24,095 nucleotides of DNA from a virus, in the IMG/VR virus record IMGVR_UViG_3300000117_000247, positions 1-24,095 of that record, one strand, 5' to 3'. Of this stretch, positions 6,936-22,839 are shown in pieces (positions within the stretch are counted from its first letter, which is position 1; each line of letters opens with the position of its first letter). The notes under the pieces are model-generated. The model was not told the DNA's origin, made no database searches, and saw nothing but the letters and a program-made list of their open reading frames with translations. A program made the position numbers and the translations under genes.

Positions 6936-6938
6936 AAT

Positions 6939-7556: not shown

Positions 7557-7565
7557 TTTTTTCAA

Positions 7566-8336: not shown

Positions 8337-8383
8337 TTATTTAATGTTTCTAGTGTATTATAATAATATAACCTAATTATACT
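8337..8383. promoter_or_regulatory. Divergent AT-rich promoter region
   Basis: The gap between two divergent genes contains several TATAAT-like blocks. On the plus strand TATAATAATATAA precedes the ATG at 8384, and on the minus strand TATAAT precedes the GT14 gene. No TTGA-type -35 fits 16-17 nt upstream of either. The plus-strand TAATATAA resembles the block before the structural gene at 4442 and may be a late-type element. Confidence 0.35.
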
Positions 8384-8728
8384 ATGGATAATTTCGAAAA
8401 TCCCTTACAAAGTCAGGCTAGCGTCAATGATGCTGGAGAAATGGAAGTAACTATCGCTAAGAAATATTCTGAAGCAGAAGCTGGAGTTTACAAGTCATAT
8501 ATGAGCATGTGCGCTATGGAAGACAAAACTTTTACAGACACTGCTGGAATGGGAGATAAAGAGACTTATAGTGCTTGTGCAGTGCAATATGGTAAAATGC
8601 GAGCAATGATGATGGACGATAGCAAGGGAGAGCTAACTGAAAAACAAAAGAAGCTTCCTCCTGCCCTCCAAAAAAAGATTATCGAAAAGATGAAAAAAGA
8701 GGGTAAACACAAAGAAGAAAAAGAATAA
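8384..8728 (+). CDS. Cysteine-box protein related to the 5384 gene
   Basis: A 114-residue protein. The stretch YKSYMSMCAMEDKTF then YSACAVQYGKM (about residues 38-70) has the same pattern as SRCIVDLADKKEF/AAVCYSQF in the 5384-5920 product, that is Cys, a spacer with an acidic turn, then A-x-C-x-x-(Q/Y)(F/Y). A second recognisable element is KKLPPALQKKIIEKMK followed by a lysine/glutamate-rich tail. Such proteins are found near phage head genes. It could be a small structural or scaffold component. It starts with ATG 8384 after an AT-rich region and is not preceded by a Shine-Dalgarno. Confidence 0.55.
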   Translation: MDNFENPLQSQASVNDAGEMEVTIAKKYSEAEAGVYKSYMSMCAMEDKTFTDTAGMGDKETYSACAVQYGKMRAMMMDDSKGELTEKQKKLPPALQKKIIEKMKKEGKHKEEKE

Positions 8729-8757
8729 TTGATTTTTTATTCAATTTTCTATAAAAT
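8729..8757 (+). promoter_or_regulatory. Sigma70-type promoter, leaderless arrangement
   Basis: TTGATT (8729-8734), a 17-nt spacer and TAAAAT (8752-8757), with exactly 6 nt to the GTG at 8764. The predicted transcription start falls on the GTG, which supports the unusual GTG start codon. Confidence 0.45.
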
Positions 8758-8763
8758 CTTTTA

Positions 8764-9063
8764 GTGAAAACGATTGTTAAAAAGAAATTAGAAATCGAAA
8801 CTAAAAGACACGATTTCGATAATGAATTTGCTTACATCGAAACATGGCATAATACCCAGTTAAAAGATTGCTTTTTTGCAGAAAAACAATTCCTCTGGCC
8901 TGATGGTAGCCTGAAGGCTGGAGGTAAGAAATATTTCTTAGGTAGAAATCCAGATTCTCCAGAAAAAGAAATTAAATGCATTAACTACAATAACTTTAGT
9001 AGTTTCGACCATCTTTACCATTTATGTGAAAATGGAGAGATTATAAACATTCTTCATGTATGA
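8764..9063 (+). CDS. Hypothetical protein with GTG start (99 aa)
   Basis: A 99-residue protein (MKTIVKKKLEIETKRHDFDN...) with a Trp- and Phe-rich middle (AYIETWHNTQLKDCFFAEKQ). No family is recognised. The start is a GTG at 8764, supported by the promoter ending 6 nt upstream. It ends with the overlap ATGA into the next gene, so the two are coupled. The pairing with a structural-looking gene suggests a small virion or tail-assembly partner, but this is inference. Confidence 0.5.
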   Translation: MKTIVKKKLEIETKRHDFDNEFAYIETWHNTQLKDCFFAEKQFLWPDGSLKAGGKKYFLGRNPDSPEKEIKCINYNNFSSFDHLYHLCENGEIINILHV

Positions 9064-9734
9064 GTGAAAACACTTTCCACATTAAAGCAACTCCACCTGA
9101 CTGTACAGCATTTAACTGGATGGCCCAGCCTTTCATGCCGAAAGTAAAGCCAAGTCTCAGCTCAGAAGGGGATAGAGAATTTGAAGTAACATTTAATCAA
9201 GCTTATGTTTTTGATTATGCTGCTGGGGGAAAAAGGATTGACGTTGCTGGATTAACACATACTATGGGAGAAGAGTCAGCGACTTTTACTTTAAAAATAA
9301 CATTTAATCATCAAGATGGAGCAATCCAAAGCGCGGAAATTTTAAAAGATGATAGCGGTAGTGCAACATTTGAGAACTTTACTGCTCAAAGTGATGTAGA
9401 TGGAGATGGAGTTCCAGAAGTTCCCTCCGCAGAATATTATTTAGAATTAGCTAAAATGGAATCTGGTGATCTTGAAGAACTATACATAAGAGAAAATATC
9501 CACTTGCATATTAGAGGTCATTACCAAAAGTTTGATCAATTCCAAACTGAGGGAGATAGTCCCACGGATGGAGCAGGTTATGGAGTGATGAAGCCTCTCA
9601 ATTCTAGCTTGGCTAATGGTGATATCGAATATAGAGCCTTAGCTGAAGACCCAAGAGAAAATAATGATTTAGAAATAAGACAGGAAGGGAATAATATATA
9701 CTTCTTTGTTCAGGGAGAATCTAGCTCTAGTTAA
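9060..9734 (+). CDS. Putative virion structural protein
   Basis: A 224-residue, acidic, beta-rich protein. Residues 120-128 (DVDGDGVPE) form a calcium-binding loop of the dockerin/EF-hand DxDxDG type. The C-terminus is low in complexity (QGESSSS). The middle contains serine- and threonine-rich strands (ESATFTLKITFNHQDGA) typical of Ig-like or tail-surface domains. It overlaps the upstream gene by 4 nt. Its stop TAA and the stop of the convergent HAD gene both lie in the palindrome TTAA at 9731-9734. A virion location is inferred from composition; no closer identity is claimed. Confidence 0.5.
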   Translation: MSENTFHIKATPPDCTAFNWMAQPFMPKVKPSLSSEGDREFEVTFNQAYVFDYAAGGKRIDVAGLTHTMGEESATFTLKITFNHQDGAIQSAEILKDDSGSATFENFTAQSDVDGDGVPEVPSAEYYLELAKMESGDLEELYIRENIHLHIRGHYQKFDQFQTEGDSPTDGAGYGVMKPLNSSLANGDIEYRALAEDPRENNDLEIRQEGNNIYFFVQGESSSS

Positions 9735-10039
9735 ATATAAAGCTCATCAAAGAACCTATTTCCATTGTAAGCTTTATCATCGATCCAAAAATCGTATGAT
9801 GGCTTATTCATCCTAAGCTCTGTATATTTGACTCCCCAGCCTTCAAGCTGGCTTTTTGTTAATTCAGTCCAGTCTTTGCCTGAGTTACCTCCCCTAGCTG
9901 TCCAATAGATAACCTCATTACCTTTGTCATACAGTTCATTAAAGTATTGTATACGAGAACCCATAGGTCTGGCTAACTCGTATCTACCTCTACTATCCGT
10001 GCAGATAGTCCCGTCAATGTCTATAATAAAAGTTTTCAT
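9731..10039 (-). CDS. HAD-family phosphatase of a sugar-nucleotide cassette
   Basis: A 102-residue haloacid-dehalogenase-fold enzyme: motif I DIDGT (residues 7-11, with D7 the nucleophile and D9 the acid/base), motif II YWTARG (T47), motif III K79 in NKPSYD and motif IV IDDKA (D87, D88). There is no cap domain, so it should act on a fairly open substrate. It is the last gene of an operon with a heptose kinase and a heptose adenylyltransferase, overlapping the latter by 4 nt. The missing chemical step between those two enzymes is removal of the 7-phosphate from heptose 1,7-bisphosphate, normally done by GmhB, also a HAD enzyme. I infer that role here. It is much shorter than GmhB (about 190 residues). 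Confidence 0.7.
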   Translation of the reverse strand: MKTFIIDIDGTICTDSRGRYELARPMGSRIQYFNELYDKGNEVIYWTARGGNSGKDWTELTKSQLEGWGVKYTELRMNKPSYDFWIDDKAYNGNRFFDELYI

Positions 10040-10512
10040 ACTTCTTTGATTTTTGTTATTATTTTCGTGGCGCTTACATCCTCAGAAAATGGAATAAAAC
10101 ATACTTCTGTTTGCCCACACTCTGCTTTCTCAGCGGGGTGTAATGTAGCAACGCTATAATCTCCACCTTTATACCAGCGACATGGCTTGAAATGTCTCAG
10201 GTAACCAGAAACTCTCGCTTCATTAAATATGAAAACATAGTCAACACAATCATGGCAAGCAACAAGGAAAGCTCTCTGCTCTTGGCTAATAATAGGTCTT
10301 TCTGGACCCTTATTCTTTTTAACACTTTTATCGCCATTCACACCAACAACTAATTTATAATCATCAGGCAAATCTTCCTTAATTGATTTTAGAAGGTGTG
10401 CGTGACCTGCATGAAATAAGTCAAAGCAACCATTTGTAAAAGCCATCTTTTCGCCTTCTACCGCGAAATGGTGCATGATTGTAGATGCATCAACTATTTT
10501 GGGGTGATTCAT
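10036..10512 (-). CDS. Heptose-1-phosphate adenylyltransferase (HldE C-terminal type)
   Basis: A 158-residue nucleotidyltransferase matching the C-terminal half of HldE: FTNGCFDLFHAGH (25-37) with the HxGH nucleotide-binding motif at 34-37, ISQEQRAFLVA (the ISxxxR motif), YKGGDYS and SEDVSATKIITKI near the C-terminus. HldE transfers AMP from ATP to D-glycero-beta-D-manno-heptose 1-phosphate, giving ADP-heptose. In enterobacteria it is fused to the kinase; here it is a separate gene that overlaps the kinase stop by 4 nt. A related sugar 1-phosphate cannot be excluded, but the presence of all HldE landmarks makes heptose the best reading. Confidence 0.8.
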   Translation of the reverse strand: MNHPKIVDASTIMHHFAVEGEKMAFTNGCFDLFHAGHAHLLKSIKEDLPDDYKLVVGVNGDKSVKKNKGPERPIISQEQRAFLVACHDCVDYVFIFNEARVSGYLRHFKPCRWYKGGDYSVATLHPAEKAECGQTEVCFIPFSEDVSATKIITKIKEV

Positions 10513-11255
10513 ATCGTTGCTGTTCCTGCTTTACTGACGACGATACTACAACAAGCCTGAGCATACTCAATAGCTAAATCTATATTTTGATTAAATAGAT
10601 AACTAGTCGCAAAAGCCGCAAGGAAAGTATCACCAGCACCACTCACATCTCTTACTTGAGCCACAGATTTTAAAGGATATTTTTTTCCTCTGAACCTACA
10701 CCCTTTACTCCCCAAAGTAACAATGAGGTTTTCCATCCCCATCCCTTCAAATTCATTCTCCTTATATTCCTTTTCATTGATTTTGATAAGATCAAACGAA
10801 TTAGCCCATTCGGGTTTGTATTTCTTTTTTGTATCCAAGAAAGACAATTGAGCATTATCTGCAATATATTTTAAATCTCTATCTGTTAGGTATCCTTTAT
10901 TGTAATCGGAGACAATTACAGCGTCATAAGACCATACATTAGCTTCGCGTAACTTTAATTTATTAATCTCTGTATACTCATCTGAATCAACCCGCAAAAA
11001 CATTTGATTAGAATTGGAATCAATATATCTAACCTTTGCTCCAGTGCTTTGATTGCTTTTAATCTCTACTTCTGCTTCTTTACCTAAATCATTAAGGCAA
11101 GCAACGACATTTCTATGGACATTTGAAGCCATACCCATGAAAGTAACTGAATCTTTTTGTTTAAAAACAGGAACTGGAGCTTCTGGGCATAATCTATCAG
11201 CAGACCCATAAGTAAAAATATCTAAGCATGACTCTCCGATGATTAATATTTTCAT
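10509..11255 (-). CDS. Heptose-7-phosphate kinase (HldE N-terminal type, PfkB family)
   Basis: A 248-residue PfkB-family kinase, shorter than the HldE kinase domain (about 315). RLCPEAPVPV (21-30) corresponds to RISPEAPVPV of HldE, GMASNVHRNV to the GGAANVAxN motif, VSDYNKGYL to the DYxKG strand, DVSGAGDTF (203-211) to the anion-hole/catalytic signature, and KAGTATI is the C-terminal end of the domain. The expected reaction is ATP-dependent phosphorylation of D-glycero-D-manno-heptose 7-phosphate at C1. The segment between the N-terminal sheet and SDYxKG is shortened, which may be why it is compact. It overlaps the adenylyltransferase at its end and the cupin gene at its start, both by 4 nt. 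Confidence 0.8.
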   Translation of the reverse strand: MKILIIGESCLDIFTYGSADRLCPEAPVPVFKQKDSVTFMGMASNVHRNVVACLNDLGKEAEVEIKSNQSTGAKVRYIDSNSNQMFLRVDSDEYTEINKLKLREANVWSYDAVIVSDYNKGYLTDRDLKYIADNAQLSFLDTKKKYKPEWANSFDLIKINEKEYKENEFEGMGMENLIVTLGSKGCRFRGKKYPLKSVAQVRDVSGAGDTFLAAFATSYLFNQNIDLAIEYAQACCSIVVSKAGTATI

Positions 11256-11626
11256 TTTTGTGAATCTCCTTTTTGAATTCTATAAGAATCATACTCAAAA
11301 TGTTGAGTGCTAACTTCAAAAACTTTAGAATCCTCTAGAGCTATAAGCTTGTGAGGAATACATGGCCTTAAGTGAACCGTATCTCCCTCCTCTAATTCAA
11401 CCTCTTTCTCAATAGCATTACCCAAATCGTAATATTTTAACATCAACCGGCCTTCTATGATAGCCCAAGTCTCCTCTTTTTTAATATGATAGTGCATAGA
11501 AAACTCTGCACCCTTATTAAATTTCAAAATCTTACCACAATACAAGTCATTGTTTGTAATCCATACTTCTTCTCCCCAACCTTTTGGATGTCTTTGCACC
11601 CTAGAAAACACAGGCTCTAAGTTCAT
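11252..11626 (-). CDS. Cupin sugar isomerase-like protein
   Basis: A 124-residue single cupin. The motifs GKILKFNKGAEFSMHYHIKK, EETWAIIEGRL, GDTVHLRPCIPH and then KLIALEDS carry the metal-binding H, H, E and H of cupin motifs 1 and 2. The sequence and length resemble the C-terminal domain of type II mannose-6-phosphate isomerases. It is the first gene of the four-gene cassette, with a promoter ending 6 nt before the ATG. In context it could prepare a sugar phosphate or epimerise the heptose; the exact reaction is not shown by the sequence. Confidence is high for the fold, lower for the reaction. Confidence 0.75.
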   Translation of the reverse strand: MNLEPVFSRVQRHPKGWGEEVWITNNDLYCGKILKFNKGAEFSMHYHIKKEETWAIIEGRLMLKYYDLGNAIEKEVELEEGDTVHLRPCIPHKLIALEDSKVFEVSTQHFEYDSYRIQKGDSQK

Positions 11627-11632
11627 TAACTG

Positions 11633-11660
11633 ATTTTAGCTAGAATACATGAAAATTCAA
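11633..11660 (-). promoter_or_regulatory. Sigma70-type promoter of the sugar cassette
   Basis: On the minus strand TTGAAT (11660-11655), a 16-nt spacer and TAAAAT (11638-11633), with 6 nt to the ATG at 11626. It sits just downstream of the terminator at 11672-11694, so the cassette is an independent unit. A leaderless transcript is predicted. Confidence 0.55.
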
Positions 11661-11671
11661 TAGCTAATAAT

Positions 11672-11694
11672 AAAAAAACCGTCCCGAAGGACGG
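11672..11694 (-). terminator. Rho-independent terminator ending the lysis genes
   Basis: A perfect 6-bp stem CCGTCC/GGACGG (11679-11694) with a UUCG-type tetraloop on the minus strand is followed by TTTTTTT (11678-11672). The U-run is on the minus strand, so it stops transcripts coming from the holin and microprotein genes. The plus side has only a weak T-run. Confidence 0.85.
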
Positions 11695-11706
11695 CTTTTA
11701 AATTAT

Positions 11707-11844
11707 TTAAATTAGTTTTATTTTTTTATTTTTTTCTTTCCTATCTTTCTCCTTCTCTTTTACTTCCTGCTTCGTTTCTACTTGATTAGAAATGGCAGAA
11801 TAACAAAAAAAAGATGTAATAGCAGATAAGACAATTACCCTCAT
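11707..11844 (-). CDS. Signal-peptide microprotein in lysis region (spanin candidate)
   Basis: A 45-residue frame not usually called because of its size: MRVIVLSAITSFFCYSAIS followed by a short Q/E stretch and a very lysine/glutamate-rich tail (KEKEKDRKEKNKK). The N-terminus is a clear hydrophobic signal segment with one Cys at residue 14, but the bases around it do not form a canonical lipobox. TATAAT lies exactly 6 nt upstream of the ATG (11844), although no TTGA -35 is seen. It sits 31 nt downstream of the holin stop and before the terminator. A small periplasmic protein with a charged tail in this place recalls outer-membrane spanins. This is a hypothesis; it could instead be an unrelated exported peptide. 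Confidence 0.45.
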   Translation of the reverse strand: MRVIVLSAITSFFCYSAISNQVETKQEVKEKEKDRKEKNKKIKLI

Positions 11845-11875
11845 GGATTAATTATAAAATTAAGATATTTTAATC

Positions 11876-12070
11876 TTACTTTTTATCTCCCTTGTCTTTC
11901 GCCTTGCCGATGTTGACACTAAGAAAGTCAACAATCTTATATACTTTAGCAAGGACAGTACCTTCTTTGGGGGTGGGAGTTAAAGCTGCAAATGCGCTAG
12001 CTGCTGCAATAACAGCACAAGCCCAGTTAAACCATGCTTGACCTTCGACGAATTGAATAAGTGATTCCAT
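11876..12070 (-). CDS. Small holin-like membrane protein
   Basis: A 64-residue protein with one hydrophobic helix (about residues 12-31, WFNWACAVIAAASAFAALTP), a short linker TPTPKEG and a second amphipathic segment (VYKIVDFLSVNIGKAK), ending in a basic tail DKGDKK. The ASAFAAL...TPTP pattern is one I associate with phage holins. It would permeabilise the inner membrane so that the amidase encoded at 13025-13657 can reach the wall. The genes between them are MazG, a basic microprotein and a hypothetical protein, so the lysis genes are interspersed. No Shine-Dalgarno is evident. Confidence 0.65.
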   Translation of the reverse strand: MESLIQFVEGQAWFNWACAVIAAASAFAALTPTPKEGTVLAKVYKIVDFLSVNIGKAKDKGDKK

Positions 12071-12120
12071 AACAATATTTTGTTTGTATCACTTATTACA
12101 CGAAACAAAAAAACAGGGAA

Positions 12121-12249
12121 TTATCTACCCTGCCCTCTATAGGGCTTTTTATAGTTTTTAGAACTTTTGAGCTTAGAAGTCTTACTTTTAGCATGTACTC
12201 CTTTACGTCTAATTTTCTTTTTGGCTTCGTAAGTATTTACTTTTTTCAT
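12121..12249 (-). CDS. Very basic conserved 42-aa phage protein
   Basis: A 42-residue frame: MKKVNTYEAKKKIRRKGVHA, then KSKTSKLKSSKNYKKPYRGQ and GR. Twenty of its residues are Lys, Arg or His and none is hydrophobic enough for a membrane segment. The tail SKNYKKPYRGQGR is, from memory, shared by small proteins in several phages. Its ATG overlaps the upstream MazG stop by one base (TGATG), so it is translationally coupled. A nucleic-acid-binding role is likely from charge alone. The plus strand over its 3' end carries a 5-bp hairpin plus T-run, probably a side effect of coding. Confidence 0.6.
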   Translation of the reverse strand: MKKVNTYEAKKKIRRKGVHAKSKTSKLKSSKNYKKPYRGQGR

Positions 12250-12668
12250 CACTTATCTTTTACAAATTGTCCATTCACCATTTTGCCAGTACGACTTTTA
12301 ATAACGTCATAAGCAGCATTCAAACTGTCAACTGTATCCATATCAACCATCTTTGCTAATAAAATAATAGTGACTAACATATCACCAATACCATCTTTTA
12401 CCTCTGCACGAATATCCTCTTCAGTTGGAGTAGGAACCCCAATACTTTCCATCAAATCTGCTTGATAATCAAAATCATTTAACTTTTGCAAAGCTTGTCT
12501 TGTTTCATCAAGCTCTTCTTGAGTTTTGTCTAATTGCCGCAATGGAGTAGATTTGTTGAAAATACCCTTATCTTGTCCCCAATCAATTACTAATTTACTT
12601 AGTTCTTCGTATTTCATAGATTCTTCCCTCTCCAACATTTTGTTGAATGCGTTCTCAAAAGGTCTCAT
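12249..12668 (-). CDS. MazG-like NTP pyrophosphohydrolase
   Basis: A 139-residue protein of the all-alpha NTP pyrophosphatase (MazG) family. The first acidic motif is EELDE (51-55, E52xxE55) and the second is EVKDGIGD (89-96, with E89, D92 and D96), followed by the hydrophobic helix MLVTIILLAKMV and the C-terminal SRTGKMVNGQFVKD, typical of phage members. It hydrolyses nucleoside triphosphates to monophosphates, and phage versions are proposed to adjust nucleotide or alarmone pools. It overlaps both neighbours (4 nt and 1 nt). An internal ATG at residue 18 has a purine-rich sequence before it, but the ATGA overlap supports the first ATG. Confidence 0.8.
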   Translation of the reverse strand: MRPFENAFNKMLEREESMKYEELSKLVIDWGQDKGIFNKSTPLRQLDKTQEELDETRQALQKLNDFDYQADLMESIGVPTPTEEDIRAEVKDGIGDMLVTIILLAKMVDMDTVDSLNAAYDVIKSRTGKMVNGQFVKDK

Positions 12669-12961
12669 AGACTAACCATTTTAGGAGCAATCTCTTCAAT
12701 TTCCTCACAAAGTCTTAAAATTTCGGAGGTGTGCATATTGAGTGCTTTTGTTTTTAACTTAAACATTTCATTATAGAAACGTTGATAATCCTCTAATTGA
12801 TAGATATACTCTTGACCTGAAATTTTGAGGATAAAGTCCCCATATGTTTCATATAACATTGGGTCAATGCATTTTTCAATTGGATCATAAGAAGCATTCC
12901 CTACAACATAATCAAAAATGTCGTGACGATCCACTTTAATATTCATTATTTCTTGACTCAT
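12665..12961 (-). CDS. Hypothetical phage protein (98 aa)
   Basis: A 98-residue acidic protein (MSQEIMNIKVDRHDIFDYVV...) with aromatic-rich helices (YIYQLEDYQRFYNEMFKL) and a C-terminal helix (EILRLCEEIEEIAP). No family is recognised. Its start is preceded by a large hairpin (12971-13005) and the sequence CACTAATATC immediately before the ATG. The same ten bases precede the tail-fibre start at 22839. It overlaps MazG by 4 nt. Function unknown. Confidence 0.55.
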   Translation of the reverse strand: MSQEIMNIKVDRHDIFDYVVGNASYDPIEKCIDPMLYETYGDFILKISGQEYIYQLEDYQRFYNEMFKLKTKALNMHTSEILRLCEEIEEIAPKMVSL

Positions 12962-12970
12962 GATATTAGT

Positions 12971-13005
12971 GGCGAGTCCACCGATAACTAAGAAGTGGAC
13001 CCGCC
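12971..13005. promoter_or_regulatory. Stable hairpin between endolysin and 12665-12961 gene
   Basis: GGCG-A-GTCCAC (12971-12981) pairs with GTGGAC-C-CGCC (12995-13005): 10 pairs, one A/C mismatch and a 13-nt loop. It is the most GC-rich sequence in the region. On the minus strand it ends 9 nt before the ATG at 12961 and is not followed by a U-run; on the plus strand only TTTCTCT follows. It could be a weak terminator for the endolysin transcript, an RNase processing site or a translational control element. Confidence 0.55.
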
Positions 13006-13024
13006 TTTCTCTATGAACTACCCT

Positions 13025-13657
13025 CTAAAGTTCTTTAATACGATTAATAACCATTTGATAAGTCTCATCTGAAGGGTCATTTTTCCTATTAGGCGCGACC
13101 ATTTTGTGCGTTAGAATGTTTTCTACTCCAAGGTCAAATTTATCCATGAGGTATTTGCATTTCTTGGCAGCGGAATCAATCTCAACCGCACTTGGCTTAC
13201 GTTTGTTAGTGTCTCCGTAGAAAGAAATACCGATACTGTGACCATTTAGACCACTCACACCTTTCCAAGAAGATCTTCCAGCATGCCAAGCTCTTTTTTT
13301 GTCATACACAAATTGCGTACGAGATCCATCAGGCGCAATAAGATAGTGATAACTGACCTTTGATGCAGAATTTAAAATCCATGAACGAGTCCCATCATGA
13401 CTTCCACTGCTATGATGCAGAATCACATACTTGGGCTTAATCGTTCCAGATTGGTTTGGAGAAGCTTTATAAACTTCAGGGTAATCATCTTTAAGTTCTT
13501 GAGCTTCAGGCTCTGGCTTTTCTGGCTCTCCTTTATCGTCATGAATTAGATTTTCCCAAATCATTTTCCATGTAGCGGGTCCATCAATTCCATCATCACG
13601 CAAGCCAAGTTTTTTTTGAACTTGTTTCACGATACGGTCTTTGCCAGAAAAACGCAT
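13025..13657 (-). CDS. Endolysin: N-acetylmuramoyl-L-alanine amidase with peptidoglycan-binding domain
   Basis: A 210-residue lysin. Residues 6-35 (VKQVQKKLGLRDDGIDGPAT) form a PGBD-1-type peptidoglycan-binding domain. A Glu/Pro-rich linker (45-60) leads to an Amidase_2 (T7 lysozyme/AmpD type) domain: VILHHSSG with the first zinc His at 81, YHYLIAPDG, RAWHAG, NGHSIGISFYGD and ILTHKMVAPNRKNDPSD with the later His and Asp zinc ligands. It cleaves the amide bond between MurNAc and L-Ala. There is no signal peptide, so a holin is needed. A longer frame starts at 13756, but ATG 13657 has a good ribosome site (GAGGAA) and directly follows the upstream stop. Confidence 0.9.
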   Translation of the reverse strand: MRFSGKDRIVKQVQKKLGLRDDGIDGPATWKMIWENLIHDDKGEPEKPEPEAQELKDDYPEVYKASPNQSGTIKPKYVILHHSSGSHDGTRSWILNSASKVSYHYLIAPDGSRTQFVYDKKRAWHAGRSSWKGVSGLNGHSIGISFYGDTNKRKPSAVEIDSAAKKCKYLMDKFDLGVENILTHKMVAPNRKNDPSDETYQMVINRIKEL

Positions 13658-13658
13658 T

Positions 13659-13847
13659 TTATTCCTCTTCAGTTGGAGCCTCTGCTTCTGCTTGTGGCAA
13701 TTGAGATTTTGCTTGCTCTTGAATTTTAGTAGCAAGGAAAGAACCTGCTTCAGCAATCTGAAGCCCTTGAGCTTTTACAGCGACATCAATAATCTGAAGA
13801 AGTGCGTTAGCTTCGTTTTCTTGTAAGGTAATTTTGATTTCGTTCAT
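13659..13847 (-). CDS. Small conserved phage protein upstream of the endolysin
   Basis: A 62-residue protein: a beta start (MNEIKITLQENEAN) and two helices (ALLQIIDVAVKAQGLQIAEA and SFLATKIQEQAKSQL), then an acidic tail (AEAEAPTEEE). I recall similar short proteins with the pattern 'ITLxExExNxLxxxIDxxVKxxGL' from phages near lysis or structural genes, without known function. It has its own strong promoter and is cotranscribed with the endolysin; the endolysin ATG begins 1 nt after its stop. A regulator of lysis timing is possible but unproven. Confidence 0.6.
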   Translation of the reverse strand: MNEIKITLQENEANALLQIIDVAVKAQGLQIAEAGSFLATKIQEQAKSQLPQAEAEAPTEEE

Positions 13848-13856
13848 ACTTACCTG

Positions 13857-13884
13857 ATTATAGAAATTCAGAGCAATAATTCAA
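13857..13884 (-). promoter_or_regulatory. Strong sigma70-type promoter of the lysis operon
   Basis: On the minus strand TTGAAT (13884-13879), a 16-nt spacer and the perfect TATAAT (13862-13857), with 9 nt to the ATG at 13847. The short stretch contains AGGT just before the ATG, which would be at or upstream of the transcription start. It drives the 13847 gene and the endolysin. Confidence 0.65.
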
Positions 13885-13888
13885 CAAA

Positions 13889-14875
13889 TTAACATCTAAA
13901 TTTCAAAAAAACATGCTTAACTGCCATCCACATATCTAAATATTTATACTTAGCTAATCTGCCCAGAAATATTGTACTTTCTTCTTTTTTAGCTAATTCC
14001 TCGTATTTTAAATGCCTCTGCTGATCTCCCCCCCAAGGAATGGGGTAAAATGGAATATCTCCCTCTTCCATGCTTTTAGGATATTCTCTTGTAATTATGG
14101 TTTGTCCCGAATGATTCTGGCTAAAATAAGAATGATCATATTGTCTGGTCCATTTGTTCTCGTTATTGCATTCATTATAAACAAGGACTTCTTGCTTATC
14201 CATTGTAGGGTAATGCTCAAACTTTAAAGACCTATAAGGTAATTCACCAAAACAAAAATTAAAATACTGATCTATCCTGCCTGTATAAATAACTTTATCG
14301 CAATCCTCTTCCCTCCATTCTTCCTGTCCCGCATTCAAAACAACTTCTACCCCATCTAACATTTTTTCAAACATTTTTGTGTATCCTTCTTTTGGTATAC
14401 ACTGATATTTTTGACCTTCAAACCAAGTTGGACTTTCTGAGTTCTTCGTACTTGGGATTCTATTTGTGATTGTTTTAGGAATCTTCCCAAAATTCACTCC
14501 CCATTGTTTCTCACTATAGTCTTTAAAAATGTATTTTTTAATCTCTCCTTGAGAGAGTGTCCTCCCTATAACTGCCTCACAACCTTTGTCGTGGTATGGT
14601 AAAGGTATATCGCCAATCTGGGTTCTACCAATTGGCTTATACTCCAGATCAATCCATTCTGTGTACCTAGATAGAAACTCAAAAACTTCTTCATCATCCG
14701 TATGAAAAATATGTGGGCCATACTTGTGGAAGTAAAGACCTTCAATGTCAACATCATAACAGTTGCCTCCAATGTGATTACGGGATTCAAAAATTTTAAC
14801 CTCATAGCCTTTATCTTTAAGTAGACGAGCAGCAGTAATCCCACTCAAGCCACAACCAACAATGACAAACTTCAT
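13889..14875 (-). CDS. glf: UDP-galactopyranose mutase
   Basis: A 328-residue flavoenzyme, about 40-60 residues shorter than typical Glf. The FAD-binding GxGxxG is GCGLSG (7-12), followed by the acidic end of the strand EVKIFESRNHIGGNCYD. FHKYGPHIFHTDDEEV is the diagnostic UGM block, YTGRIDQYF and YRSLKFEH are the substrate-binding regions, and FLGRLAKYKYLDMWMAV the C-terminal FAD-contacting segment. It converts UDP-galactopyranose to UDP-galactofuranose, the donor for galactofuranose in surface glycans. It is the last gene of a glycan cassette, overlapping the glycosyltransferase gene by 4 nt. Loss of loops rather than of catalytic blocks explains the shorter length. Confidence 0.9.
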   Translation of the reverse strand: MKFVIVGCGLSGITAARLLKDKGYEVKIFESRNHIGGNCYDVDIEGLYFHKYGPHIFHTDDEEVFEFLSRYTEWIDLEYKPIGRTQIGDIPLPYHDKGCEAVIGRTLSQGEIKKYIFKDYSEKQWGVNFGKIPKTITNRIPSTKNSESPTWFEGQKYQCIPKEGYTKMFEKMLDGVEVVLNAGQEEWREEDCDKVIYTGRIDQYFNFCFGELPYRSLKFEHYPTMDKQEVLVYNECNNENKWTRQYDHSYFSQNHSGQTIITREYPKSMEEGDIPFYPIPWGGDQQRHLKYEELAKKEESTIFLGRLAKYKYLDMWMAVKHVFLKFRC

Positions 14876-15657
14876 ATGTTAAAATGCATTTTCATACTTT
14901 CACTCATTTTTTGGGAAAACTTTAAATTGGCTTTACCTGAGTGTTGCTCATTGTGAGAGCAATTGTATATGGCTGCTCTAAAATTAATATTTTTACCTTC
15001 ATATCCTTTATAATTAAAATATTTCCAAGAAAATACATGAGATCCTATCACTCTTATTAAATAAAATTTTTGTGTAGATCTAATTATAGTATGCTGGGAT
15101 GAACTAAGATTAACATTTTTAAAATTAATTTGCTCTTTAAGTATGCTAGCTTTAGTTATATTACAAGTCCCGCACTTTTTATCAAAATTATCAATGCACT
15201 TAAATGAATCATCTACACCCATTTGAATACCCTTATTGATTCTTAAAAAATCTTTATTTGAATTATTAATAGTTCTAACTAGATCTCTATGTATGAAGTC
15301 ATCTGCGTCAACAATCATGACATAGTTATCATCATCAACTTCACTTAAAGCTAAAATATACTTAGTGCCTTTATCTAATCTGGCTTGAGGTGTTGCAATG
15401 CTTTGAGTTACCTGAGTGTCTATTTGCCAATTGTTTGGAGGCAATGGTGGTGGCCAATCAACTTCTACAAACTTTACCTTTTTAATTTTTTTATTTTCTG
15501 GAAAGGTGTTTAGCGTTTTATTTGAAACGACTATTACTTCAAATCTGTCATCAAGTTGACCACATACAGAAACCAAGGTCTTTTCTAATAAATCCCAAAT
15601 ATCATTGTATGAATGACAGTTTTCGTAATGTTTAACACATATAATAAAAGTAACCAT
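14872..15657 (-). CDS. GT-A fold glycosyltransferase (GT2-like)
   Basis: A 261-residue protein with a nucleotide-sugar binding GT-A layout: the first strand VTFIICVKHYENC, RFEVIVVSNK, and the metal-binding VDADDF (DxD-type, 116-121) in NYVMIVDADDFIHRDLV. The middle has an unusual Cys-containing stretch, CGTCNITK. Specificity cannot be read. The neighbouring UDP-galactopyranose mutase suggests galactofuranose as donor, but this is inference. It overlaps UGM by 4 nt and the sulfotransferase stop by one base, so the products are made together. No signal peptide: it acts in the cytoplasm. Confidence 0.65.
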   Translation of the reverse strand: MVTFIICVKHYENCHSYNDIWDLLEKTLVSVCGQLDDRFEVIVVSNKTLNTFPENKKIKKVKFVEVDWPPPLPPNNWQIDTQVTQSIATPQARLDKGTKYILALSEVDDDNYVMIVDADDFIHRDLVRTINNSNKDFLRINKGIQMGVDDSFKCIDNFDKKCGTCNITKASILKEQINFKNVNLSSSQHTIIRSTQKFYLIRVIGSHVFSWKYFNYKGYEGKNINFRAAIYNCSHNEQHSGKANLKFSQKMSESMKMHFNI

Positions 15658-16211
15658 TATTCCCCAAATTTATAACCAAAATATTCGATGTCTTTCGCGT
15701 ATATTTCTGCAACAATTTGTTTCGTTTCTTCATCGTAGTATTCGGCGTAATGCTTATGTTTTGTTTTATTTACGTGAGGAAGTTCTTGTTGCGGGACTCC
15801 AATTTTGTCGCAAATAGTATTAAAGTCTTCCTGAAGATTTTCAAATCTGCCAATAAAATCGACTAAGCATACGTCACCTTCAAATAGTTTACTATGCTGT
15901 GATGCATGTTTTGCAGGAAATGGATTTAATAAAAAATCTAAGAAACTCATGTCTTTAGCACTTTCTATATATCCATGTTGAGTATTATCTTTAACTCTAA
16001 AGAAATACTGAGACAGCAATTTATCCCAAGGATTACGTATAATAGAAAATTTAAAATAACTATTAAATTCCGTAGGCTTATACTTTTTGTACCACCAAGC
16101 CCAATTATGCTTCTGCGGAGGGTTCTCAGCGTTTACTAGAAGCTTAGTAATACTACTACCACCAGTTTTGTTTATGTGTATAAAGATAAACTTATTTTTG
16201 CAACACATCAT
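15657..16211 (-). CDS. Sulfotransferase family protein (copy 1)
   Basis: A 184-residue protein of the PAPS-dependent carbohydrate sulfotransferase type. The 5'-phosphosulfate loop is INKTGGSS (13-20) and the 3'-phosphate site is IRNPWDKLLSQ (58-68) with R59 and S67. IGRFENLQEDF and the C-terminal HVNKTKHKHYAEYYDEETK are the conserved family ends. The usual P of PKTGG is N here. It would transfer sulfate from PAPS to a sugar hydroxyl. The start ATGATG is preceded by GGAG inside the upstream gene's last codons. It is a tandem paralogue of the gene at 16215-16802, with the C-termini very similar. Confidence 0.75.
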   Translation of the reverse strand: MMCCKNKFIFIHINKTGGSSITKLLVNAENPPQKHNWAWWYKKYKPTEFNSYFKFSIIRNPWDKLLSQYFFRVKDNTQHGYIESAKDMSFLDFLLNPFPAKHASQHSKLFEGDVCLVDFIGRFENLQEDFNTICDKIGVPQQELPHVNKTKHKHYAEYYDEETKQIVAEIYAKDIEYFGYKFGE

Positions 16212-16214
16212 AAT

Positions 16215-16802
16215 CTATTCTCCAAATCTATATTTAAATGTATCTATATCTTCTTCAAAACTTTCCGCGATAATCTTAATTGATTGATCGTCATAATATT
16301 CAGTATAATGAATGTGTTTTGTTGCGTTTACATGAGGAAGTTTTACTCTAGGATAATTAATTTGATCACATATAAAATTAAAGTCATTCTGAAAATTTTC
16401 AAACCTTCCTACAAAATCTGTTTTAATTGATCCATCCACGGTTATAAAATTTAATTGTGGTTTGAAAAAAACCCATTGTTCCCAAACATGTTTTGCAAGT
16501 ATAAAGTCCTTGAATTTTGGATATTCTTGTTTAATTGTTAGTGTTTTAGGTCTGTCAAAACGAGGTATTCCCCCTCTTTTAAGGTATTCATAAGCACTAA
16601 CGAACTTATCCCAAGGATTTCGAACAAACGCAAATTTAAAGAGATCATCTATAGTAGGGCAATAGTCGGTGGGTCCAAAATATAATTTAGATATCCCATA
16701 GTGGTCGTGAAGTTTAAAGTTAAATACTTTTTTGACAGATCTCCCTCCGCATTTAGGAATATGTATAAAGATAAAATTGTTTTTATGATCTACAAAAGGC
16801 AT
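16215..16802 (-). CDS. Sulfotransferase family protein (copy 2)
   Basis: A 195-residue paralogue of the adjacent gene. The 5'-phosphosulfate loop is IPKCGGRS (15-22), the 3'-phosphate site VRNPWDKFVSAY (60-71) with R61 and S69, and the C-terminal blocks VGRFENFQNDF and HVNATKHIHYTEYYDDQSIK align with those of copy 1. The glycine-rich loop differs (PKCGGR against NKTGGS), so substrate or activity may have diverged. It overlaps the upstream Fringe-like gene by 20 nt and is separated from copy 1 by 3 nt. Together the pair suggests sulfation at two positions or on two acceptors. Confidence 0.75.
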   Translation of the reverse strand: MPFVDHKNNFIFIHIPKCGGRSVKKVFNFKLHDHYGISKLYFGPTDYCPTIDDLFKFAFVRNPWDKFVSAYEYLKRGGIPRFDRPKTLTIKQEYPKFKDFILAKHVWEQWVFFKPQLNFITVDGSIKTDFVGRFENFQNDFNFICDQINYPRVKLPHVNATKHIHYTEYYDDQSIKIIAESFEEDIDTFKYRFGE

Positions 16803-17523
16803 TTTCTAAAGATTGGTAAGGGCATTTTTGTTCATTGAAGTCAGTCCAAACATACTCCAAATCTTTAATGTGTGCGGTGATAAGATCACCCTTTACATTA
16901 ATTATATTTTGGCTTTCCTCCATTGTGTGAGGATCAAAAGAATACATTTTTTTGAGGGCGCTAACATATATTTTATCATTTTCTTTATTATCCGCTTTTA
17001 ACTTTTTATTTAAACGATAACAAATGTGTGATAATGCTATGTCAGAGTGGCTTTGAAAATGTCTATTTTCTTTCCATCCATTTTCTATTACAAATTTCTG
17101 GATTAATTTAAAAGTTTTATCGTTCATTAAAATGCCAGCTCCTCCAAATATCGCCTTCCTTGGGTGGCAAAGCTGAGAGCAATATATTCTTAAATTGTCT
17201 TTGGATAATTTATTTATAAATGAATTTAAATTCTCAGTATGTATAAAAGTATCGTCGTCACAAATTATGTGCCAATCAGCATCATTCCAATCTTGATTAA
17301 ATATTGATTCTATTTTTTCAACACAAGAGTTATAGTCATCAAAATCACAAACCTTTATTACTGGAATTTCATCAATTGCGTCAAATCCTCCTAGAAAATA
17401 AAAATTATCTCCACACTCTTTGATTCTTCTTATGACTGTATTATACAATGGTTTTGTTCTCTCCTCATGAAGAGCTTCACAAACCATAAAATAATAGTTA
17501 ATCACCTTCGACTTCTTCGGCAT
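16783..17523 (-). CDS. Fringe/GT31-like glycosyltransferase
   Basis: A 246-residue GT-A protein resembling the Fringe / beta-1,3-galactosyltransferase (GT31) fold. Key blocks are DADWHIICDDDTFIHTENL (81-99) with the metal-binding DDD, then FGGAGILMN (126-134), which corresponds to the GGAGYxLS block, and SHSDIALSHIC (158-168), where an acidic residue acts as base in the family. GT31 is well known in animals and less familiar in phages. No signal anchor is present, as expected for a cytosolic enzyme. It overlaps the upstream gene by 26 nt. ATG 17487 is a shorter alternative start. Donor unknown; UDP-sugar expected. Confidence 0.65.
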   Translation of the reverse strand: MPKKSKVINYYFMVCEALHEERTKPLYNTVIRRIKECGDNFYFLGGFDAIDEIPVIKVCDFDDYNSCVEKIESIFNQDWNDADWHIICDDDTFIHTENLNSFINKLSKDNLRIYCSQLCHPRKAIFGGAGILMNDKTFKLIQKFVIENGWKENRHFQSHSDIALSHICYRLNKKLKADNKENDKIYVSALKKMYSFDPHTMEESQNIINVKGDLITAHIKDLEYVWTDFNEQKCPYQSLENAFCRS

Positions 17524-17842
17524 CTTCTTCTAAAGGAATTTCTTCTAATATTCCTTCTTTATAGTATGATTCAATAGCTGGTATCGCGTCAAATACAGAT
17601 TGCATAGCAGCAGCTGCCTCTGGAACGTTGGCGACAACTTCCCAAAAATCTAAATGAAGCATTTCTGAATTTTCAGGGCTTGGATCTTCATCAGAATCTG
17701 AATCAAATGCAGTAAGCTTTAAGCTCATGTAACCATCTGAGGCATTAGGAGCATTAACAACAAGTTCTGATACCCATGTATGCGGAAGAGTTTTTTCAGC
17801 TTTTGCTGATATCACTAATGGTGTTTCTTTTGTAATTGGCAT
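17498..17842 (-). CDS. Small acidic protein next to the tail fibre
   Basis: A 114-residue acidic protein (MPITKETPLVISAKAEKTLP...). A beta-type start is followed by SDGYMSLKLTAFDSDSDEDP, a helical middle (AAAAMQSVFDAIPAIESYYK) and a very acidic tail (EEDAEEVEGD). It has no known domain. Similar short proteins are often encoded beside tail-fibre genes, so a fibre-assembly or tail role is possible. It has the best promoter in the window directly before its ATG (TTGAAA, 16 nt, TATAAT) and shares its last 26 nt with the Fringe-like gene. Confidence 0.55.
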   Translation of the reverse strand: MPITKETPLVISAKAEKTLPHTWVSELVVNAPNASDGYMSLKLTAFDSDSDEDPSPENSEMLHLDFWEVVANVPEAAAAMQSVFDAIPAIESYYKEGILEEIPLEEDAEEVEGD

Positions 17843-17877: not shown

Positions 17878-20800
17878 TTAACCTGCTCTCCAACTACTTC
17901 CGTCAGAGTATACTGGAATGACGTAGCTACCATTTGTACTTACAACAGATCCATGAGAAGTAGCTAAAGGATAGAAGCTGTAAGCAAACGCTCTTTGACC
18001 TGCTGGAGAAGCAGAAGGTAAATTTGTCGCGTTGTAGATTGTCTGGTGGATGGTTCCGCTCACATCAAGGGATGTACTTGGATTAGTTGTTCCGACTCCA
18101 AGTTTCGTGTTAATGAAGTAGCTTGAGTTTCTTCTGATTGCGCATACTTCAGTTCCTTGGTTGACAGTAGCCGACCCATATCTAAATGATGCGATGCCTT
18201 GAATACTTCCTGATTGAGCCGCTTGAACCCATAAAGTGGTGCTAGTGCCATTCCTACTGATTACGTTATAATCAGTGTTACCCGTATCAGTTCTAAATGC
18301 ATTAGCAGTAGCGGTTCCCGTAACATCAATGCCAGAAGTATTGACCCTAAATCTTTCTACTCCAGCGACTACCGACCTAAGATAACTGTTATTTGACCAC
18401 TGAAGGTAATCATTACTATCTAATCCAATAAGATTAATACTATCTCTAAGGTCAGTCTCTAATTGGAATTCAGTTCCACTGAGATCTAACCCCCTACCAG
18501 CAGTGTATGTTGTATTGGTGTCAGTCGTAACGTAACCAGCACCGTTAGTGAGCTGGTTGTTATTAGTAGGAATCGTAGTAGAGTTATAAGCATTTGACCC
18601 AAATATCTCGCTGAAACGTTTTCTTCTTTCTGCACCGTTATCTAGGAGAATCAATTCATCTTCAGATGTGTTGATAGCACCAGTCATATCAGTTAGTTCT
18701 GATAAATCTAGACTTAGGTTGACTGTGCCTGAAGAAGTAATAGATGTTCCACCCCCATCTAATCCCGCTGCTGTATTTACAGTAACGCTGGTTACAGTTC
18801 CAGTATTAGCCGTAGCACCAGAAGCAATGCCATCCAGCTTAGATCCATCAGAAGCTACATCCCTACCATCAACTGTGCCACCTAGTGTAATGTTTCTACT
18901 AAAGGATGAATCACCATTAGCATCGTTAATTGTTGTAGTTTTTCTACCCGCCCAACCACTGCTCCAGTTATCAGGAGATGAATTTATCTGGATGCCAGAT
19001 TCAGCATTTAAATATACAAGCTCATTTATTTGTCCAGTAAAGTAAGCACTAGCTTCTCCAGCGTTTAATACAAGCTGTTGTCCGTTATATGTTCTTACTT
19101 GATTAGTTCTTAATCCATCGGCGTTGGTAAAATCACCCCTACTAGAATACGTCTTTACGCCAGATATTGTTTGTGCGTTAGAGGTGGTTACATACCCAGC
19201 AGATGCGTGATTACCCCATCCATATGCGGTGTTCCAGTTACTTACATTTGCATCACTCGCTCCAGTAATTGTTCCTCCAACAAAGTTGCCAGATCCATTA
19301 ATACCTTTAGACGCTCCATCAACAAAGAACCCGCCATCCGCACGAATGTATCTTGGAGTATATATATTTTTAGCAGTCTCTTGGTTAATCCTCAACCAAG
19401 ACGTATCTTCAACCCCAATCTCACCAACACGAGTTGTTCCATTATAGAAAACAATATGATCAGAAACATCATTATCTGCTTTTTTTATGTGGAGGTTAGA
19501 TTGGCTACTTCCACTACCAATTGTTAAATCACCAGATACGTATAAATCATCTCCGATATTTACGGGTTCGTTGGAACCATCATTAGAAATTGATCCCCTA
19601 AATACAGCACTATTCTGGACATACAGAGAAGTGCCACTTGAAGCAGCGTATAGGTAGTTATTGGTAACTACTACCTCACCCGTATTCTGAATTCTTAAAG
19701 CTTGTGCGCTATCACTTCCTCTCCTTACCTCAAATGCGTTTCCACTGGAACCACTTCCTGTAACAAGAACAGCCCCTGTTAATGAAGGGCTTGCTAAAGG
19801 AGCTTTCGCTGCCAATGCAGTAGTTATAGATGAAGCGTAACTGGCATCATCCCCTATGGCAGCTGCCAATTCATTGAGAGTGTCTAATGCGGCTGGTGCG
19901 CCACCAATCAAATCACCGATCTCTGTCTGAACATAAGCCGTAGTAGCGATCTTTGTTGAATTATCATTCGGTGGCTGTGTTGAGGCAGTAGACAGTCTAG
20001 CTGCCGCTATAGTACCAGCATTTAAGTTGGTTGCATTTCGATAATAAGATCCTTCTTGAGAATCAAGTAAGTCAGCATCCACTGATGTTAAACCAGAACC
20101 ATTTCCTCTGAAAACACCGTGTGATTTAAGATCACCATTATCACCACCAGTCCCTTTGATAACTTTTCCAGCTTCACAATCAACTTCTAAAGTTGCACCC
20201 GTATAAGAATGTGAAGAAGTAAACGTGACTGTTTCTTCATGTAATGCTAAGATATTAAAAGATAATGTAACTGCGGTAGCATTATTAGTTTTAACTTGAA
20301 TTGCATAAGAATCATTATTATTACTAATGATTTTAACGAATAATCTAGTATAAACACCAGAAAGTACTTCAACTTGAATATCTTGATAATGATTAACTAT
20401 AATATCTAAGATGTTTGCAACCACAACACCGTTTGCAGTACCAGCAACAGTCATTCTGATTGCGCTCATTAATGCACCACCAGAAACTGTTGCTACTGTC
20501 GTGTAGCCAGAATTTGATATATTAGATGCAGAACCCTCATAACGTCTTGCATATCTGTCATCTAAGTTAGTAGAACCAAGACCTGTAATATGACCATAAG
20601 TATCAAGAGTAATATCTTGAATGACTGTGCCGTTACTATTGTTTACCGATCCTTGGGACGAAGTGTCTGTGTGAGATAGGCCAGTTGAAGTTTGAGTCAG
20701 GCCACCACCAGCAGCTACAGAAAATGTTGTGCTACTTAAGCTGATACCGTTACCAGCAGAATACGTTGTGTTGGTATTCGTATCCGTCCAAGGGACGTTG

Positions 20801-22839
20801 ACATACATCTTCTCCGAAGAAACTTCGACAGGGTAATTTTTGCCATTCTCTGAGTAACCAATCTTAACGCCACCTCTTGTCGAAGAAGATGCAGCAGGTA
20901 ATGAGTAAGCAGAAGGTATTGTCGGTTTATTAGTTAAATTGTTATAACTAATATTAATGTTTGCAGATCCGTTAAAACTCGTTCCAGCAATTGTACGAGC
21001 AGTAGTGAGTGTATCAGCATTTGGATGGTAACCATCATGGAAAGCTTTATATTTTGTACCACCGCTTCCACGTTCAAACTGTAATAGAATATCAAGGGCA
21101 CGAGTTGAATCAGTTGTTAGAACCATACCAGTTCCATTAACTTTCTTTAAAGCATTGTCACTATAAAATTCTACTCCAGTGCTATCATTGTTAAATACAA
21201 TACTGCTGTTAAATGCCTTAGTTCCAGTAAATGTTTGACCTCCAGAAAGGTGTGCTGTATCAGAATCAAGTTTCGCTGAAGATATTACAGCCCCTGTCCA
21301 CTCACCAGAATTATTGATTACCTGAGTAGTAGTAGAATTACTTGTACCCAAAAGAGTTCCAACATAATATCCATTAGCAGTAGAAACATGATCGGATGTG
21401 AATATACCTGCTCTTACAAGCGAATGGTCATTTGTACCATCTCCACGAATATAAATTACAGCTCCAGTACCTTTACTATTATGTGTTGGGTTTGAATCAT
21501 TGTAAGTAAATACATCGCCATCGCCATCAGCATTCCAAATAGATGTTGCACCATCAATGATGTTTTCATCACCTGCTGCTGCAAACGCTGAAGTGTTAGA
21601 AGTCGCAGCACTTCCGAGACCTAAAGATGCACGACCTGTAGAAGCATTTAACCCTGTCGATCCACCATCCCACTTGTTGCGGTCTGTGTATGCGGTGTTC
21701 CAGTTTGTTGAGTTACCACCAGTAGCGTAGATGATACCACCTGTGCTAATAGATGCTCCAGAAGCTCCCGTATTTCCATTACCAAATGTAACTCCGCTAC
21801 CAGTGTAATAGTTAATGTATGTTTGATGCCCCGCAGCAGAATCTATGTGTAGATTACCATTTGTGGTTTGAAGTATGGATTCTTTGTTCGCTACATATGC
21901 ACTAAGCTTTAATATACCTTGAGCCGTGCTATCCGTGTCTCCTAACTCTAAAGTGTCAGGTATACGATCAGTGCTCAATGTCCCACTAGTAATCTTAGAA
22001 GCAGCGAGACTTGGGATACGTGCGGTAGCTAACGTCCCCGAAGTAATGTCGGATGCAGCATGGGAGTGAGAAGCTGTAGCGAAAGCTGAAGCGTGATTAC
22101 CATCAAGTAAGTCAGCATCTAATCCAGTACCAGTGCCATCGTTACCTGCATGCCAAACTGTAGAACCTTCCCAAGCTAATACGCCCGAAGAATTCATTCT
22201 TAGATACCTCCCAATTTGACCAGAGATATGGAAACCTATACCTACTGTTGAGCTACTACCGCCAAAAGAATCCAATCTAATGTTTGCGTTAGTGTAATTA
22301 CTTACATTATCTTTTCTAGCAAAAATGGTGTCAGTAGTACTAAGCTGATTAGTAATAGTAATAGCTTGTGATGTGGTGTTACCTCTACCTGTTACAGTAG
22401 CTAGTGTATCTGTTTCAGTATAACTAGTTAAAAATGAAGTACTATTAAATGCATTAGATCCAAGAGTTCTTTTAACAACCTGATTACTACCGTTAATAAG
22501 CAAAGCAGTTGTTTCTGAAGAAGTGGTTAAGCCTGTTAATGTTAAATTAGGAGCAGAAAATCTCTGGTTCGATGTCCAAGAATCTGTTGAATTAACCCAG
22601 TTAATCGTTTTATCACTTGCACCTTTCAAGGTAATACCACCACCATCTGCTGTAGTATCACTAGGAGATGATACATCACCTATAATAATATTCTTATCCT
22701 CAACTAATAGGTTAGCTGTATCAATAGTCGTAGTAGTACCATTGATATTTAAATTACCACCTATCGTAACATCTCCATTACTTTCGTAAGTATTAGAGGT
22801 ATGTGTTAGTTGCCTTTTTGATGAAGTTACTGTTGCCAT
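17878..22839 (-). CDS. Long modular tail fibre protein (1653 aa)
   Basis: A 1653-residue Ser/Thr/Asn/Gly-rich fibre. The N-terminal 100 residues (TIGGNLNINGTTTTIDTANL, LVEDKNIIIGD) form a module found, from memory, in many marine phage fibres. The shaft has repeated units: DADLLDGNHASAF (about 241-253) and DADLLDSQEGSYY (921-933); SDITSGTLATARIP (263) and SKITSGTLSTDRIP (281); NWNTAY near 379 and again near 1201; NTTYSAGNGISL and NTTYTAGRGLDL. No C-terminal chaperone (Ser74-type) motif is visible; it ends SDGSSWRAG. It should form a trimeric host-recognition fibre. Its start region has CACTAATATC before the ATG. Confidence 0.85.
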   Translation of the reverse strand: MATVTSSKRQLTHTSNTYESNGDVTIGGNLNINGTTTTIDTANLLVEDKNIIIGDVSSPSDTTADGGGITLKGASDKTINWVNSTDSWTSNQRFSAPNLTLTGLTTSSETTALLINGSNQVVKRTLGSNAFNSTSFLTSYTETDTLATVTGRGNTTSQAITITNQLSTTDTIFARKDNVSNYTNANIRLDSFGGSSSTVGIGFHISGQIGRYLRMNSSGVLAWEGSTVWHAGNDGTGTGLDADLLDGNHASAFATASHSHAASDITSGTLATARIPSLAASKITSGTLSTDRIPDTLELGDTDSTAQGILKLSAYVANKESILQTTNGNLHIDSAAGHQTYINYYTGSGVTFGNGNTGASGASISTGGIIYATGGNSTNWNTAYTDRNKWDGGSTGLNASTGRASLGLGSAATSNTSAFAAAGDENIIDGATSIWNADGDGDVFTYNDSNPTHNSKGTGAVIYIRGDGTNDHSLVRAGIFTSDHVSTANGYYVGTLLGTSNSTTTQVINNSGEWTGAVISSAKLDSDTAHLSGGQTFTGTKAFNSSIVFNNDSTGVEFYSDNALKKVNGTGMVLTTDSTRALDILLQFERGSGGTKYKAFHDGYHPNADTLTTARTIAGTSFNGSANINISYNNLTNKPTIPSAYSLPAASSSTRGGVKIGYSENGKNYPVEVSSEKMYVNVPWTDTNTNTTYSAGNGISLSSTTFSVAAGGGLTQTSTGLSHTDTSSQGSVNNSNGTVIQDITLDTYGHITGLGSTNLDDRYARRYEGSASNISNSGYTTVATVSGGALMSAIRMTVAGTANGVVVANILDIIVNHYQDIQVEVLSGVYTRLFVKIISNNNDSYAIQVKTNNATAVTLSFNILALHEETVTFTSSHSYTGATLEVDCEAGKVIKGTGGDNGDLKSHGVFRGNGSGLTSVDADLLDSQEGSYYRNATNLNAGTIAAARLSTASTQPPNDNSTKIATTAYVQTEIGDLIGGAPAALDTLNELAAAIGDDASYASSITTALAAKAPLASPSLTGAVLVTGSGSSGNAFEVRRGSDSAQALRIQNTGEVVVTNNYLYAASSGTSLYVQNSAVFRGSISNDGSNEPVNIGDDLYVSGDLTIGSGSSQSNLHIKKADNDVSDHIVFYNGTTRVGEIGVEDTSWLRINQETAKNIYTPRYIRADGGFFVDGASKGINGSGNFVGGTITGASDANVSNWNTAYGWGNHASAGYVTTSNAQTISGVKTYSSRGDFTNADGLRTNQVRTYNGQQLVLNAGEASAYFTGQINELVYLNAESGIQINSSPDNWSSGWAGRKTTTINDANGDSSFSRNITLGGTVDGRDVASDGSKLDGIASGATANTGTVTSVTVNTAAGLDGGGTSITSSGTVNLSLDLSELTDMTGAINTSEDELILLDNGAERRKRFSEIFGSNAYNSTTIPTNNNQLTNGAGYVTTDTNTTYTAGRGLDLSGTEFQLETDLRDSINLIGLDSNDYLQWSNNSYLRSVVAGVERFRVNTSGIDVTGTATANAFRTDTGNTDYNVISRNGTSTTLWVQAAQSGSIQGIASFRYGSATVNQGTEVCAIRRNSSYFINTKLGVGTTNPSTSLDVSGTIHQTIYNATNLPSASPAGQRAFAYSFYPLATSHGSVVSTNGSYVIPVYSDGSSWRAG
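19223..19239. repeat. 17-bp repeat in tail fibre, copy A (copy B 21689-21705)
   Basis: TATGCGGTGTTCCAGTT occurs at 19223-19239 and identically at 21689-21705. On the coding strand it encodes NWNTAY. The match is exact even at synonymous positions, which suggests a recent or exchange-maintained duplication of fibre modules. Confidence 0.7.
20062..20079. repeat. 18-bp repeat in tail fibre, copy A (copy B 22102-22119)
   Basis: ATCAAGTAAGTCAGCATC occurs at 20062-20079 and identically at 22102-22119, encoding DADLLD in both. It marks the boundary of a fibre module and could be a recombination point. Confidence 0.7.

Follow-up and report, generated by a model that had tools for sequence, protein, structure and literature searches.

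What might a T4-like phage build with a run of sugar- and sulfate-handling enzymes encoded beside its tail fibre, and to what would the product be attached? The question is raised by positions 13889-17523 (minus strand) of the IMG/VR virus record IMGVR_UViG_3300000117_000247, of which we analysed positions 1 to 24,095 (the window, 24,095 nucleotides). Five enzyme open reading frames (ORFs) lie there on one strand, with neighbours that overlap or abut with gaps of a few bases: a GT31 glycosyltransferase like Fringe and C1GalT1, two sulfotransferases (ST2 and ST1), a GT2-like glycosyltransferase and a compact UDP-galactopyranose mutase (UGM). We argue that this may be an optional, exchangeable cassette that builds a sulfated, galactofuranose (Galf)-containing glycan on tail structures of the phage itself, a reading to which we give somewhat less than an even chance. 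The product itself is probably a sulfated, Galf-containing glycan, a chemistry that we infer from the enzymes.

An earlier note on this DNA described the five ORFs as an overlapping run between the lysis operon and the tail fibre. Its coordinates are correct, all five ORFs are on the minus strand, and the run does lie between the amidase and the tail fibre. The run is not a chance arrangement, since the gene order is kept in about 25 related T4-like viral contigs (given L numbers below), at the same site after the tail fibre and a small protein, p17498, and all of its genes are under purifying selection (median ratios of nonsynonymous to synonymous divergence, dN/dS, of 0.08-0.21). The tail fibre (17878-22839, minus strand) is encoded on the same strand as the cassette, which is placed between it and either the neck gene gp13 or the amidase. 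Its G+C content is 0.32, against 0.38 in the rest of the window. None of the five proteins has a strongly hydrophobic segment.

The mutase and the GT31 glycosyltransferase

Can these enzymes make and transfer Galf? UGM (13889..14875, minus strand, 328 amino acids) matches Pfam GLF at 1.6e-55 (188 bits against a curated cut-off of 26.3), with NAD_binding_8 at its N-terminus (1.3e-19), and PDB structures of UGM at values down to 8.8e-61. Its score against the NCBIfam equivalog TIGR00031, 280.1 bits, is below the cut-off of 303.75. Residues Y120, W125, R139, R215, R244, R306, Y312 and D314 are in place. They correspond to E. coli Y151, W156, R170, R247 and R278 and to the C-terminal GRLAxYKYxDM motif, and the active-site residues are near-invariant across 64 viral homologues. 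Helical domain 2 has 28 residues against 58 in E. coli UGM, about 30 fewer. The viral relatives retrieved almost all have 323-339 amino acids, while cellular UGM frames sampled from the family of the L332 genome have 369-378. L332 (CAKZOO010000189.1) is a phage-like contig with the cassette in a Flavobacteriaceae metagenome-assembled genome, which is a possible hint of the host or a case of misbinning. The intact active site suggests that UGM would convert host UDP-Gal to UDP-Galf.

The GT31 protein (16783..17523, minus strand) misses the Pfam Fringe cut-off (5.5e-4, 19.8 bits against 21). A profile search matches C1GalT1 (7q4i) at 3e-17. The AlphaFold2 model (pLDDT 85.7, pTM 0.87) has a GT-A fold closest to GT31 structures, and the top fold matches are GT31 enzymes: Z is 20.5 for DmC1GalT1, 20.5 for the chondroitin synthase CHSY3, 19.4 for Manic Fringe and 16.4 for GfsA. 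An assignment that was weak is therefore firm, because of the profile search (3e-17) and the fold search (Z 20.5). The protein has a DDD metal motif at 89-91, H218 and an S-type motif V, S160-D161. Across 14 homologues D89-D91, the GG motif G127-G128 and the catalytic Asp of motif V, D161, are invariant. We found no counterpart in named phages, nor one of a GT14-like protein.

Motif V bears on the donor. In GT31 enzymes that use pyranose donors the residue preceding the catalytic Asp is reported to be Glu or Asp and in GfsA it is Gly, and a non-acidic residue there has been proposed as a potential signature of Galf transfer (PMC11538602). The GT31 of the window has the non-acidic S160 before D161, as this GfsA-type rule predicts for a Galf enzyme. 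The S-D motif is found in the window's lineage, L024, L044 and L032/L033, and every such locus has a UGM gene. The other viral and bacterial GT31 homologues examined have Glu before Asp wherever the motif is readable, and these E-type homologues lack a UGM gene within 6 kb, the distance being 7.5-15 kb in two large clusters. The S-type proteins form a single clade (99/99). Counted by 40% clusters the association with UGM is 3/3 against 0/4 (p = 0.029), where L044, L032 and L033 were obtained through their UGM genes. Searching 42 UGM-selected records for GT31 returned the same S-type proteins only, plus one doubtful match. The fold, motif V and the linkage to UGM all point to Galf transfer by GT31.

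The closest model for such an activity is Aspergillus GfsA, a GT31 beta-1,5-galactofuranosyltransferase (PDB 8YRL, PMC11538602). The phage protein shares its GT31 GT-A fold, DxD, catalytic Asp and C-terminal His, as well as the lack of an acidic residue before that Asp. It differs in lacking the extra beta-sandwich domain and in having Ser for the GfsA Gly, its fold match to GfsA is below that to C1GalT1, and its donor is a prediction.

Could the glycan made by GT31 contain no Galf, or the two enzymes belong to separate pathways, with UGM used otherwise and a pyranose donor for GT31? The GT31 family mostly uses pyranose donors and the nearest profile is C1GalT1. GT31 and UGM co-occur in two sulfotransferase-selected records where about one is expected, which is not above expectation. 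UGM also has two allele types that are swapped independently of GT2 and ST1. However, such a scenario must account for an S-type motif V and a constant UGM linkage throughout a deep clade, and for L024, where GT31 and UGM form a two-gene pair. We consider it improbable.

The sulfotransferases and the variable slot

Both sulfotransferases belong to Pfam Sulfotransfer_2 and PHROG 3347. ST1 (15657..16211, minus strand) matches them at 2.8e-19 (70.7 bits against a cut-off of 22) and 1.8e-27, ST2 (16215..16802, minus strand) at 3.1e-15 (57.4 bits, same cut-off) and 8.9e-23. The two motifs that bind the sulfate donor 3'-phosphoadenosine 5'-phosphosulfate (PAPS), 5'-PSB and 3'-PB, are kept in both proteins; in the alignment they read NKTGGSS and IIRNP...S in ST1, and PKCGGRS and FVRNP...S in ST2. 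ST1 and ST2 would thus move sulfate from host PAPS onto the glycan. No APS kinase, which would give the phage its own PAPS supply, was found. Phage proteins of PHROG 3347 are labelled 'Galactose-3-O-sulfotransferase', and identity to the one of Stenotrophomonas phage DLP6 is about 30%. What sets the present locus apart is a pair of paralogues placed together with UGM and GT31 in a single run. Sulfotransferases are common in viral contigs, and their function in phages has been termed unclear (PMC10580990). On five large viral contigs (L153, L112, L121, L123 and L131) genes for sulfotransferases and glycosyltransferases are lined up in long series, with seven sulfotransferase-like ORFs within 13 kb of L153.

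The remaining enzyme (14872..15657, minus strand) occupies a slot that holds a GT25 or nothing in relatives. It matches Pfam Glycos_transf_2 at 6.7e-6 over 31 amino acids only and has a conserved DADD at 117-120. Its AlphaFold2 model has a pLDDT of 38, and a PDB search gave no match. The GT2 or GT25 protein may add the first or a further sugar. The earlier note, which had proposed that the five proteins could make and sulfate a Galf-containing glycan, is partly supported: UGM, GT31 and the two sulfotransferases fit such a product, while the GT2 call stays weak. The loss of active-site residues that it named as counter-evidence is not seen in UGM or GT31, and the change in motif V is tied to UGM.

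Presence and absence in relatives

Downstream of the cassette the relatives have either p13659 and the amidase, as in the window, or a T4-like run of gp13-gp14-gp15-gp16-gp17-gp18 in that order. The latter agrees with the annotated gene order in C48C1, the closest named phage by terminase (64%), in which UGM is far from the tail genes. The content of the cassette varies. A GT25 (Glyco_transf_25) replaces GT2 in L003, GT2 is missing from L008, L018 and L019, and ST1 from L006, L007 and L009. L024 has the smallest form, GT31 and UGM only, overlapping by 4 bases. The five-gene set is one of several combinations, and the cassette can do without GT2 and without one sulfotransferase. The genes are also mosaic. 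Synonymous difference to the window is 0.15 in ST1 and 0.59 in PfkB for L018, and 0.22 in GT2, 0.12 in ST1 and 0.82 in UGM for L029.

Relatives that lack the cassette were found by searching with the amidase and gp13, and not with cassette genes. L292 keeps the window's gene order, with 80.6% DNA identity over 6930-13906. In this contig p17498 is followed directly by p13659 (13659..13847, minus strand, the conserved gene at the downstream edge of the insertion) and the amidase, so the site is empty, and identity to the window stops at 13906. In L178, p17498 adjoins gp13. LamG-domain genes occupy the same slot in L271, L018 and L019. Since relatives show either an empty site or LamG-domain proteins at this position, the cassette is accessory and not core. 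This is in part what the earlier note had said would speak against it, unrelated genes at the position in close relatives.

Linkage to the tail-fibre tip

Two neighbours vary together with the cassette. The tip, the C-terminal 210 or so amino acids of the tail fibre (17878..18507, minus strand), is 73-92% identical over about 209 amino acids in 8 of 11 contigs with the cassette. In L292 the tip is 27% identical, though the N-terminus of the same fibre is 87% identical. The p17498 protein (17498..17842, minus strand), which lies between the fibre and the cassette, is 80-95% identical in ten contigs with the cassette and about 33% identical in L292 and L178, so its allele tracks the presence of the full cassette. 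L292 and L178 are 70% alike in the tip and 65% in p17498. In L024, p17498 is not recognisable. In most cases, then, the tip, p17498 and the cassette are exchanged together as one block. The linkage to the tip suggests that the glycan matters for the encounter of virus and host.

Where would the glycan be placed? The most likely acceptor would be the tail fibre or a virion protein associated with it. We favour it because the enzymes look soluble, lie among tail genes and are mostly co-inherited with the tip and p17498. No flippase-type gene (PF01943) was found in five related records, one of them of 118 kb, which counts for a virion-tail acceptor too. A charged, variable sugar on the tail may alter adsorption or shield the tail.

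A phage could instead add Galf and sulfate to the lipopolysaccharide (LPS) or capsule of its host, masking the receptor of its own tip, which would exclude rivals and keep progeny from sticking to debris. P22-like phages do something similar with their gtrABC seroconversion cassettes, whose glycosyltransferases alter the host receptor. Co-inheritance of tip and cassette fits matched receptor binding and receptor masking, the GT25 of the variable slot comes from a family of LPS biosynthesis, and the same region has HldE-like genes for a heptose kinase and an adenylyltransferase. However, those genes are also present in L292, so they are not tied to the cassette, and the locus is placed among tail genes. 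The cassette encodes neither a flippase nor a membrane protein, although transferases of the LPS core work without them. It also differs from gtrABC in having soluble-looking enzymes and no membrane proteins of the GtrA/GtrB type, and in its presence in a T4-like rather than a temperate phage. We regard remodelling of the host surface as the main rival, though less likely than not.

T4 glucosylates its own DNA, so sugars and sulfate could be attached to hydroxymethylated bases in the genome of this phage. The window encodes ThyX, and phage transferases have been suggested to modify nucleotides or proteins (PMC10829341). Yet no hydroxymethylase of the thymidylate synthase family (PF00303) was found in eight related records, of which one spans 118 kb, and the linkage of the cassette is to the tail tip. 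We find DNA as the acceptor very improbable indeed.

Several points weigh against a Galf-containing glycan on the tail. A cassette that remodels the receptor bound by the tip would lead to the same linkage just as readily. Cassette genes are retained with partly or wholly different tips in L008, L022 (a partial match) and L024 (none). The acceptor is inferred indirectly. Since the S-type GT31s are a single clade, their link with UGM is one evolutionary change and not several; the Ser in place of Gly and the unremarkable co-occurrence given above count on the same side. The GT2 assignment is weak, and the related records are incomplete.

Neighbouring genes

At 9731-11626 (minus strand) lies a split HldE-like module of a cupin, a heptose-kinase-like PfkB (TIGR02198, 4.6e-36), an adenylyltransferase (TIGR02199, 3e-38) and a small HAD protein, which suggests ADP-heptose synthesis. 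It is kept in relatives that lack the cassette, and similar genes adjoin gp13 in L187, L202 and L256. A Core-2/I-branching protein (Pfam Branch; 7566-8336, minus strand) adjoins ThyX and is kept in the lineage but unmatched in named phages. The protein at 993-1925 (minus strand) is a RuvB-like AAA protein (PRK00080, 1.3e-25) with divergent homologues in the sister contigs L281 and L288. Ahead of the same amidase, the sister contigs L280-L285 and L288 encode a sulfotransferase and a GT25, a protein whose tail is a Ser/Ala/Glu/Thr repeat, and an E-type GT31 of about 202 amino acids; the content of this set differs between contigs. The late-promoter motif TATAAATA has 3 matches where 2.7 are expected, so it gives no signal. 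The 118-kb relative has no psbA.

Comparison with known systems and significance

Virion glycosylation by phages has a precedent. The virion proteins of mycobacteriophages Che8 and Rita are glycosylated, with the major capsid protein reported as a target (Freeman et al. 2023, as cited in PMC11256854). As far as that account goes, the likeness lies in phage-encoded glycosyltransferases that act on virion proteins, an activity predicted here. A set of UGM, GT31 or sulfotransferase genes is not known to us from those phages, nor is a connection with a tail tip. By their titles and abstracts, neither of two papers that mention phages, sulfotransferases and galactofuranose together describes such a phage system; subscription journals are mostly outside that coverage, so this is weak evidence of novelty.

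A more specific version of our reading is that a phage clade of GT31 Galf-transferases acts with the compact UGM to make a sulfated Galf coat on the tail, exchanged with the tip and co-evolving with receptor specificity. We think this rather unlikely. What the locus offers is a small, bounded, natural system of presence and absence beside the tail fibre, in which relatives with an empty site serve as controls. It also offers a specific residue, S160 before D161, from which the donor of the GT31 is predicted. Together such a locus and such a residue make the role of sulfated sugars in the contact between phage and host directly testable.

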